From NCBI GenBank assembly GCA_016789745.1, contig JAEUQF010000057.1:1-40176 (forward strand): DNA of 40,176 bases, read 5' to 3'. Each line of letters begins with the position of its first letter. Position 1 is the first letter of the stretch. A model generated the notes under the pieces. That model was not told the DNA's origin. It made no database searches and was given only the letters and a program-made list of their open reading frames with translations. The position numbers and the translations under genes are program-made. Positions 21,005-22,700 of the stretch are shown piece by piece. Source of the stretch: Bryobacterales bacterium (GTDB taxonomy: Bacteria > Acidobacteriota > Terriglobia > Bryobacterales > Bryobacteraceae).

Positions 21005-21190
21005 CTACGCAGCAGCCTTCACCTCACGGCCGGGTTGCATGAGTTGCCCGCTCATGTAGCCGTCTTCGGTGTAGAGCAGCAGGCCGGTTGCCTGCTCGCC
21101 GAACGGATGGACCACCGGCAGCTCTTCCTCCTGCATCTGGTACGACAGCAGACGCCACGTGCCGGCGAAGCGCGCATCGCCGTGCGTCAT
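21005..21190 (-). pseudogene. Lipocalin-like protein, N-terminal part ending at amber
   Basis: 61 residues from an ATG at 21190 that overlaps the rlpA stop (ATGA). It encodes FAGTWRLLSYQMQEEELPVV, then HPFGEQATGLLLYTEDGYMSGQLMQPGR, the first half of a lipocalin-like domain (PF13924 type, from memory). It stops at TAG exactly where the domain should continue into the next reading-frame segment. Compared with relatives I recall, a few linker residues may also be missing. Together the two pieces would make a protein of about 135 residues. Confidence 0.6.
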
Positions 21191-21879
21191 TCGTCCCCTT
21201 CCTGCTTCTGCTGCCGCACCAGGATGGCACGCACACCCTTGCGGCGCAGCTCCGATACCAGCCTGGTTGCTTCTTCGGCATTCGTGGTGCGGCGATACCA
21301 CACCGCATGCAGAGCAGAGCCCGCCCGCGGCGGTGCCAATATCGCCTCTCCTAGTTCCTTCTCCATGCGGGCGCGATACGCCTCCGCTTTGTCGCGTTCC
21401 TGGAAGGCGCCCAGTTGCACCGCATAGTCTCCGCTCGCAAACCCCAGCACCGTCAGCTTCACATCCACGATGCCCGGTCCGATCATCTCGATCTTCTGCG
21501 CCGCCGAGCGTGACAGGTCAATGATGCGGCCATCCACGAACGGGCCGCGATCGGTGATGCGCACATCCACCTCTTTGCCATTGGCGAGGTTCTTCACGCG
21601 CACCATCAGTTCGAAGGGCCATTCGCGATGCGCCGCGGTCAAACGGTTCATGTCGTAGACTTCGCCGTTAGCCGCGCGCCGGCCATGATAGGGATGCCCA
21701 TACCAGCTCGCGATGCCCTTCTGCGTCTCACCTGTTTTGGGAACACGCACGGGCTTCGGCATGCGCGCGGAAGGACGTTGCGTACGCTTGCCGCAACCGG
21801 CTGTGCCCATCAGCGCAAGCACCACCGCGCTCACCACCAGCGTGCTTCGAAGGCCTGTAAATCGGGCGTTCAAACGCAT
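21187..21879 (-). CDS. rlpA: RlpA-like lipoprotein with SPOR domain
   Basis: 230 residues. The N-terminal hydrophobic stretch ends in a lipobox-like GTAGC (Cys29), predicting a lipoprotein. The double-psi beta-barrel (about 52-145) shows KGIASWYGHPYHGRRAANGEVYDMNRLTAAHR and the catalytic-type Asp in VRITDRGPFVDGRIIDLSRSAA. A SPOR domain (about 149-226, SGDYAVQLGAFQERDKAEAYRARME) should bind denuded septal peptidoglycan. RlpA proteins are septal lytic transglycosylases in some bacteria; activity varies by lineage. A TAGAAT -10 candidate lies just upstream (21901-21896), giving a very short leader. The stop overlaps the lipocalin-like start. Confidence 0.92.
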   Translation of the reverse strand: MRLNARFTGLRSTLVVSAVVLALMGTAGCGKRTQRPSARMPKPVRVPKTGETQKGIASWYGHPYHGRRAANGEVYDMNRLTAAHREWPFELMVRVKNLANGKEVDVRITDRGPFVDGRIIDLSRSAAQKIEMIGPGIVDVKLTVLGFASGDYAVQLGAFQERDKAEAYRARMEKELGEAILAPPRAGSALHAVWYRRTTNAEEATRLVSELRRKGVRAILVRQQKQEGDE

Positions 21880-21895
21880 GTCAGCCTATAAAACA

Positions 21896-21913
21896 ATTCT
21901 AGCGCGAAACGTT
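21896..21913 (-). promoter_or_regulatory. Putative rlpA promoter -10 with shared 14-mer
   Basis: On the minus strand AACGTTTCGCGCTA runs into TAGAAT (21901-21896), about 17 bases before the rlpA ATG. The identical 14-mer precedes the rplS -10. A GCGCGAA/TTCGCGC pair brackets it. Confidence 0.35.
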
Positions 21914-21969
21914 TTTTGCCTTCTTCGCGCCACCAACGCTCTTCTTCATTCTCGCACCGCACTTTTCTC

Positions 21970-21998
21970 TTGACTTCTTTCTCAAACAACCTTATATA
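21970..21998 (+). promoter_or_regulatory. Strong sigma-70-like promoter of the lysine-rich peptide
   Basis: TTGACT (21970-21975), 17-base spacer, TATATA (21993-21998). This is the best consensus-like promoter in the window. Predicted transcription start is near 22005, leaving a leader of about 53 bases. Confidence 0.75.
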
Positions 21999-22009
21999 TG
22001 GATCACACT

Positions 22010-22029
22010 GCGATCTCGAACGAGATCGC
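22010..22029 (+). promoter_or_regulatory. 20-bp inverted repeat in the leader (operator or hairpin)
   Basis: GCGATCTCG-AA-CGAGATCGC has perfect 9-bp arms about 5-25 bases after the predicted start. As DNA it is a good dimer operator; as RNA it folds to an 8-bp stem with a GAAC loop. Confidence 0.6.
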
Positions 22030-22057
22030 TAAATCTGATGTTAGGGAGAATCATTCG

Positions 22058-22129
22058 ATGAAGAACGCAACGAAAAAGGCTGCCAAGAAGGCCCCCGCCA
22101 AGAAGGCTGCTGCCAAGAAAAAGAAGTAG
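22058..22129 (+). CDS. 23-residue lysine-rich peptide (histone H1-like composition)
   Basis: MKNATKKAAKKAPAKKAAAK plus KKK: 12 Lys and 8 Ala in 23 residues, no acidic residue. AGGGAG (22043-22048) lies 9 bases before the ATG. A consensus-like promoter, an inverted repeat and a terminator frame it, so it is a complete independent transcription unit although far below usual ORF cut-offs. The KKA(A/P)KK pattern resembles tails of eukaryotic H1 and bacterial Hc1/AlgP-like proteins, suggesting binding to DNA or RNA, but as a free 23-mer this is unusual. Alternatively the unit expresses a small RNA and the ORF is incidental; the good Shine-Dalgarno and biased composition argue against that. Confidence 0.65.
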   Translation: MKNATKKAAKKAPAKKAAAKKKK

Positions 22130-22159
22130 CCCAGGCGGATCAACAAGGTTCGTATAGCA

Positions 22160-22184
22160 GGCCCCGAGGAATCGGGGCCTTTTT
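22160..22184 (+). terminator. Intrinsic terminator
   Basis: GGCCCCGA (22160-22167), loop GGAA, TCGGGGCC (22172-22179), then TTTTT. It lies 30 bases after the lysine-rich ORF and before the convergent ispF. Confidence 0.85.
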
Positions 22185-22217
22185 CTTTGCCTCATCACCC
22201 CGCCTCCGCCTCTTCCC

Positions 22218-22700
22218 TCAACCCCGCTGCATCAACGCGATCGCTTGTGCTTCCGCCGATCGACCCTCTCCCACCGGCCCCACCTTCTCCGCTGTTTTGA
22301 ACTTCACCGATATGCATTCCACAGGCAGCCCAACACACTCCGCCAGGCTCTCGCGAATGCGTAGACGATAGTCCTTCAACTTCGGCCGCTCCAGTATCAC
22401 CGTCGAGTCGATGTTCACCAGCGTGAAGCCCTGTGCGGCAGCAAGCTCCACCGCATGCCGCAACAGCTTCAGACTATCGGCGCCCTTCCAGCGCGGATCC
22501 GTATCGGGAAAGTGCATGCCGATATCACCCAGCGCGCACGCACCCAGAATCGCATCGGTGATCGCATGTGCCAGCACGTCCGCATCGGAGTGCCCATCCA
22601 ATCCGAACTCCGCCGCAATCGCTACACCACCCAATAACAGCGGCCTTCCTACAGCCGTGCGATGAACATCCCAACCCAGCCCGCTGCGATACTCACTCAC
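22218..22700 (-). CDS. ispF: 2-C-methyl-D-erythritol 2,4-cyclodiphosphate synthase
   Basis: 160 residues, normal length. It catalyses the fifth step of the MEP isoprenoid pathway, releasing CMP. Metal ligands and family blocks: GWDVHRTAVGRPLLLGGV (Asp11 and His13), GLDGHSDADVLAHAITDAILGACALGDIGMHFPDTD, NIDSTVILERPKL, ISVKFKTAEKVGPVGEG. The enzyme is a trimer with zinc at the active site. The start overlaps ispD by 4 bases, so the two are coupled. Confidence 0.97.
   Translation of the reverse strand: MSEYRSGLGWDVHRTAVGRPLLLGGVAIAAEFGLDGHSDADVLAHAITDAILGACALGDIGMHFPDTDPRWKGADSLKLLRHAVELAAAQGFTLVNIDSTVILERPKLKDYRLRIRESLAECVGLPVECISVKFKTAEKVGPVGEGRSAEAQAIALMQRG

Follow-up and report, generated by a model that had tools for sequence, protein, structure and literature searches.

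The 40,176-nucleotide contig JAEUQF010000057.1 of a Bryobacterales bacterium (assembly GCA_016789745.1), analysed over its full length and called the window below, contains a compact cassette at positions 21970 to 22184 that a first-pass annotation had read as a self-contained gene for a 23-residue lysine-rich peptide. The elements named there, a promoter pair, a leader repeat, an AGGGAG motif, a 23-codon open reading frame (ORF) and a terminator, were all found in place (Table 1), and the locus is most likely, as far as its sequence and that of its relatives can tell, a conserved micropeptide gene for a free polycation resembling the tail of histone H1. The peptide MKNATKKAAKKAPAKKAAAKKKK has 11 lysines (Lys) and 8 alanines (Ala) among its 23 residues; the earlier count of 8 Ala was right and that of 12 Lys one too high. 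The promoter scored 9/12 in a whole-window scan, a score equalled at nine other sites, so it does not stand out as the most consensus-like of the window, as had been thought; a first scan passed over it because a T was required to close the second hexamer. For the predicted RNA (22004 to 22185) the folding energy is −65.5 kcal/mol, which lies 4.3 standard deviations below dinucleotide shuffles (0/200 as low); together with the orthologues found in relatives, this indicates that the cassette is more than a chance arrangement.

Table 1. Features of the micropeptide locus and its two neighbours in the window
Feature	Position	Strand	Detail
Promoter-like pair TTGACT-17-TATATA	21970..21998	+	−35 at 21970-21975, 17-nucleotide spacer, −10 at 21993-21998
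T-rich stretch directly 5' of the −35 box	21960..21969	+	CACTTTTCTC in the window; alignment read by eye
Leader hairpin close to the putative transcript 5' end	22010..22029	+	Perfect inverted repeat GCGATCTCG-AA-CGAGATCGC
AGGGAG, Shine-Dalgarno-like	22043..22048	+	9 nucleotides 5' of the ATG
23-codon ORF	22058..22129	+	Peptide MKNATKKAAKKAPAKKAAAKKKK; ATG at 22058, stop TAG at 22127-22129
Intrinsic-terminator-like hairpin and T run	22159..22185	+	Hairpin 22159-22180, then TTTTCTTT
rlpA, divergent neighbour (flank, outside the gene)	21187..21879	-	TIGR00413, 141.9 bits against a cut-off of 82.15
ispF, convergent neighbour (flank, outside the gene)	22218..22700	-	TIGR00151, 184.7 bits against a cut-off of 116.45

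A DNA search with positions 21960-22185 as query matched 78 of 121 genomes at an expectation value (E) of 1e-4 or lower, 73 of the 121 belonging to Bryobacteraceae, the family of the window. Eight of the 78 aligned only through the Lys/Ala repeats or through a short piece elsewhere; loci were read in the other 70, and orthologues sharing the layout were present in 69/73 Bryobacteraceae genomes and in one genome of family f2, a count that leans to ORF-bearing copies because the query contained the ORF. Across an alignment of 66 of these loci (L008, L010, L011 and L031 left out), TTGAC and TATA were invariant and AGGGAG nearly so, and CATTTTTYTC was seen by eye upstream of the −35 box in most rows and in far loci. 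The leader hairpin covaried in the same 66 loci, with 41 double-change cells versus 10.6 in shuffles, changes on both sides at 6/7 pairs, and 95.9% of cells paired versus 86.8% in shuffles and at most 40.7% with one side slid. Hairpins at the 5' end are known to stabilise messenger RNAs (mRNAs) when they begin a few bases past the start site. A hairpin followed by a T run lay 3' of the stop codon in 61/70 loci, two of the nine misses being contig ends. In the fetched stretches rlpA was present within about 1.5 kilobases in 50/70 loci and ispF in 10/70, and rsmE accompanied 61 of 207 other loci in the DNA fetched around them (25 ORF-less rows from 21 genomes, described below, and 36 others), so that copies with and without the ORF occupy a shared site. 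Promoter, leader, ORF and terminator are thus, on comparison of these sequences, inherited jointly while the flanks differ, and the proposal of a self-contained gene, for which conservation of the parts among differing flanks had been named as the check, is borne out.

An in-frame Lys/Ala-rich ORF was kept in 70/70 loci, its ATG at about equal distance from the promoter, and had 18 to 87 codons where complete (L031 is cut after 8 codons by a contig end). The commonest peptide start in Bryobacteraceae was MKNATKK. In codons 4 and 5, base 2 never varied among the 69 family loci (69/69) while base 3 took three and four letters, respectively, and Lys codon 7 was AAG in 34 and AAA in 33. From this invariance at base 2 with variation at base 3, and from the AAG/AAA swap, the predicted reading frame is judged to be under selection at the protein level. 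The final codon was Lys in 68/68 complete ends. In-frame repeats at one and the same site gave rise to long forms of 44, 50, 79 and 87 residues, and further long forms had 76 residues (L264, among the matches listed in a pattern scan) and 52 residues (L316). The mean Lys fraction was 0.49 in 67 Bryobacteraceae loci and 0.51 in 85 Acidobacteriaceae/Terriglobales loci, in a set that admitted loci only when an ORF with a Lys fraction of ≥0.3 was found and for which part of the 85 were drawn from the pattern scan, among the matches listed; these 85 distinct ORF-bearing copies encode 12 to 32 residues. The peptide mostly has 12 to 30 residues, with an overall range of 12 to 87, and retains across loci the H1-tail composition pointed out in the first-pass annotation: the family has the Lys/Ala/Pro-rich, low-complexity, repeat-built sequence of H1-like proteins.

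The breadth of the cassette in the class Terriglobia was assessed with two covariance models, R1 (promoter, leader and first codons) and R2 (a broader cassette model), which, like the DNA query, include ORF positions and under-count ORF-less copies. R1 matched 146/399 class genomes at E ≤ 0.01, with one match per genome, and 95/101 Bryobacteraceae genomes; the latter included three g42 genomes and G018 without the micropeptide ORF, G018 matching only through a 114-residue H1-like gene that lacks the −35 part. At E ≤ 1, R2 matched 217/250 genomes and 76/79 genera of Acidobacteriaceae (f11); tightening the threshold to E ≤ 0.01 left 204 genomes. Matches of R2 between E 0.01 and 1 could alone be chance; all 13 in Acidobacteriaceae were read, and the layout was present in each. 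Reading of 40 far or weak loci recovered a short Lys-rich ORF, rightly placed, in 34 by script and in L119 and L136 by eye, one example being the 13-residue peptide MATKKKAKKKKKH; the remaining four were L134 (a 114-residue gene) and L143 to L145 (g42, without an intact ORF). The pattern scan, which contains part of the ORF and served for names and extra copies only, gave the upstream promoter at 118 loci, all acidobacterial, among the matches listed; also among these, acidobacterial L221, L237, L258, L260 and L287 were without it. In a phylum sample of 396 genomes, ten genomes outside the class matched at E ≤ 0.05 and all were read; L305 and L306 (family f84) and L307 (f65) have every part of the layout and could be genuine outgroups.

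Copies without the ORF were sought in 30 genomes picked for weak or missing matches, which are no sample of their family. Matches at E ≤ 2 were obtained in 24, and 23 of these had no Lys-rich ORF (G824 has one). The ORF-less copies came from 8/9 genomes of g116, which we take to be Granulicella (including Granulicella mallensis), 10/10 of g124, taken to be Terriglobus (including Terriglobus saanensis), 3/7 of g142, 1/2 of g389, and one genome (G217) of g90. Inspection by eye showed ACG in place of the start codon in several copies, AGG in G217, and loss of the Lys codons. All 20 distinct ORF-less RNAs (a set that leaves out L300, L349 and L335, the last cut by a contig end) keep TTGAC-17-TATA, GGGAG and GGCAA, and their predicted folds end in a 3' terminator-like stem, often with a short T run. 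A conserved transcript with a lost ORF had been named beforehand as the result that would point to a small RNA; this layout does occur, in the 23/24 picked genomes and in 3/12 genomes of g42, and 70/70 loci of the main set keep the ORF. Since the layout is kept where the ORF is lost, part of the gene family looks, in sequence, like an RNA gene. In a tree of RsmE with 54 rows (repeated RsmE sequences were omitted, as were L324 to L327, L300 and L349, each a near copy of another row or drawn from a genome already represented), ORF status needs at least two changes, and Granulicella and Terriglobus fall in one clade of 15 ORF-less rows with support of 100/98. We favour separate losses of the ORF: one in the Granulicella/Terriglobus clade, one in g142 and one in g389.

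Constraint on the ORF-less RNA was clearest in the seven distinct Granulicella copies, in which mean pairwise identity was 0.33 in each flank, 0.63 in the promoter spacer, 0.98 from the −10 box to the start, 0.63 in the hairpin stretch, 0.90 between GGGAG and the terminator, and 0.73 within the terminator itself. Identity of 90% after GGGAG versus 33% in the flanks makes it likely that the ORF-less transcript has a role independent of the ORF, at least in Granulicella. A 33-nucleotide core was identical save for one extra A in 3/7 rows, which speaks against a hidden reading frame. The consensus fold had 6/35 pairs changed on both sides, and its second hairpin was broken at several pairs in one to three of the 7 rows. 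GGCAA occurred 53 times in 1366 nucleotides of the ORF-less RNAs, in a region delimited by a simple pattern, versus 4.3 expected and a maximum of 13 in 1000 mononucleotide shuffles. The motif was also present within 45 nucleotides 3' of the stop codon in 56/85 ORF-bearing Acidobacteriaceae/Terriglobales loci versus 8.4 expected, and the Acidobacteriaceae transcript thus appears to carry a second, RNA-level signal that outlives the ORF.

We consider it reasonably probable that the locus represents a stand-alone micro-gene of Bryobacteraceae and Acidobacteriaceae, encoding a free Lys/Ala polycation on a transcript that also has a peptide-independent role, this second role likely being clearest in Acidobacteriaceae. 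Several results weigh against this. The shuffle tests leave shared ancestry in place. Codons 2 and 3 do not show a plain coding pattern, base 3 being alike in 67/69 loci and base 2 more variable, so that the start of the ORF may be held at the nucleotide level too. The Granulicella spacer (63%) exceeds the flanks (33%) in identity, so relatedness explains part of the likeness between these copies. Six Terriglobus copies had promoter identities of 0.85 to 0.89 and a terminator identity of 0.74, with only 0.53 in the hairpin stretch and 0.52 from GGGAG to the terminator, a weaker constraint. In Bryobacteraceae GGCAA was not enriched (7/67 loci versus 4.1 in shuffles, maximum 11). The two changes on the RsmE tree could also mean that the ORF was lost once and regained once. 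The 12 genomes of g42, a genus within Bryobacteraceae, comprise five with the ORF, three with the layout and no ORF, and four without a match, a pattern that also fits simple decay. Finally, the cassette models matched 0/18 genomes of family f3, of the same order; the missing matches in f3, in 4/12 genomes of g42 and in 4/7 of g142 reflect either loss or a form beyond the models.

It is unlikely, in our judgement, that the gene is a mere mRNA for the polycation and the ORF-less copies its decaying relics. Such an origin agrees with the presence of the ORF in all 70 and all 85 loci, two sets that lean to ORF-bearing copies, with its expansion in frame, and with g42, where the three ORF-less copies are mutually unlike and four more genomes lack a match; it does not agree with the near identity of the Granulicella RNA after GGGAG against diverged flanks, nor with the persistence of ORF-less Granulicella and Terriglobus copies over the 15-row clade of the RsmE tree. 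The converse, a small regulatory RNA at heart whose Lys-rich ORF is a by-product of an unpaired A/G/C-rich stretch, seems improbable: hairpins, GGGAG and terminator do outlast the ORF, and ORF-bearing and ORF-less Acidobacteriaceae copies have GGCAA motifs in common, but the base-3 variation in codons 4, 5 and 7, the AAG/AAA swaps and the in-frame changes of length are coding signatures, and the motif is without enrichment in the family of the window. We give very little credence to a missing small ribosomal protein, a sort of product exemplified by the families bTHX and bL37 and close to the ribosomal factor suggested in the first-pass annotation. The peptide is indeed small and strongly basic, and it occurs behind a conserved promoter in many genomes; its length of 12 to 87 residues and low-complexity order are not those of a fixed ribosomal part with ordered sequence, the ORF is lost in several genera, and the 23-mer, a weak query, matched no sequence in the PDB at E ≤ 10. 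A Lys-rich leader peptide of an attenuator, suggested by a Lys-rich ORF followed by a terminator-like hairpin, was rejected as scarcely credible, since ispF lies convergently on the opposite strand and no co-directional biosynthetic gene follows, neighbours differ between families, and copies that have lost the Lys codons still have the terminator-like stem.

The favoured micro-gene was compared with known systems. The C-terminal KPAA repeats of AlgP have been likened to the H1 tail (PMC9239181), and chlamydial Hc2 is described as having Lys-rich pentamers and varying length (PMC2848022). The peptide family resembles the KPAA domain of AlgP/PhaF and Hc2 in its Lys/Ala/Pro composition and repeat-driven variation of length; unlike them, the micropeptide is the tail alone, usually of 12 to 30 residues and without a folded domain, and its gene has its own promoter, covarying leader hairpin and terminator. 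Neither the 23-mer nor any of four long orthologues matched a family in Pfam or NCBIfam, the HC2 and H1-like profiles included, and the separate 114-residue gene of L134 fell below the cut-offs (12.5 of 40 bits; 33.1 of 80 bits). In a protein database, orthologues of 44 and 76 residues matched nothing at E ≤ 1, a negative that is weakened by their low-complexity composition. A known RNA family was also rejected: Rfam gave four matches at E ≤ 5 for positions 21500-22700, all below gathering scores, and 0 matches for nine relatives. A literature search by title or abstract start gave no paper on this gene.

Some small RNAs (sRNAs), such as SgrS/SgrT, are dual-function. Others are SR1 of Bacillus subtilis, which encodes SR1P (PMC8501984), and VcdRP of Vibrio cholerae, with its 29-residue protein (PMC8672173). 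As predicted from sequence, the present gene resembles these in having a short, monocistronic, terminated transcript with a tiny, selected ORF, and it may also share with them a role at the RNA level; unlike SR1/SR1P and VcdRP, its peptide would be a bare polycation, and genera exist that keep the RNA layout without the ORF. According to a survey of 14 bacteria, most bacterial sRNAs hold some ORF of 10 to 50 residues (PMC5521070); unlike the ORFs of that survey, the present gene spans several families of one class.

As to mechanism, RNA polymerase would begin a few bases past TATATA and end near 22185, giving an mRNA of about 180 nucleotides, which the 5'-proximal hairpin may shield from decay and on which AGGGAG would drive strong translation. 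The peptide would then neutralise DNA, ribosomal RNA or another polyanion, as the H1 tail does. Binding to nucleic acid is plausible, being predicted from composition, and the conservation of composition and charge, without that of order and length, would suit an unfolded tail that binds polyanions nonspecifically, and not a component that is folded or belongs to the ribosome. Longer Lys/Ala proteins in this clade also point to H1-like proteins. In relatives without the ORF, the binding of a protein or RNA would fall to the hairpins and to the GGCAA repeats that separate GGGAG from the terminator. A bolder proposal, which we offer tentatively and think somewhat doubtful, is that of an ancient bifunctional transcript of Terriglobia, short and stable, that serves both as the mRNA of a free peptide like a histone tail and as a scaffold binding protein or RNA; in Granulicella, in Terriglobus and in two or more further lineages it would have become purely non-coding under selection. 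If true, a product as short as 12 residues, below the length that gene callers normally accept, would be common to much of a class of soil bacteria, a bare histone-tail peptide would exist without a folded domain, and one locus would offer a natural series from coding through dual to non-coding RNA, so that culturable strains, G. mallensis and T. saanensis among them, could be used directly to test how an mRNA turns into a regulatory RNA.

Further observations were made at and beyond the locus. Between stop codon and terminator (22130-22158 in the window), CAGGTT was present in 11/67 and AGGTTC in 14/67 Bryobacteraceae loci. Among the matches outside the class, L308, L309 and L311 were set aside because the promoter alone was present, upstream of a gene that we take to be mraZ-like; a T-tract/TTGACAT promoter recurs before this gene in other acidobacterial families, which suggests a promoter type common in the phylum. 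L313 and L314 were read as other genes, and L312 as an 82-residue ORF of a different kind. L310:1161-1604 (G471, another family of the phylum) encodes a 148-residue K/R-rich protein with KATKRK-like repeats behind a similar TTTTTTCTTGAC promoter. Lys/Ala/Pro proteins of 74 to 114 residues, without the conserved promoter, were found at L237:1084-1305, L304:1228-1518 and L134:611-952; these proteins may be related to the micropeptide or may replace it, and they start in a similar GGGAGAAT...ATGGC(A/T)ACAAA(A/G)AAA context.
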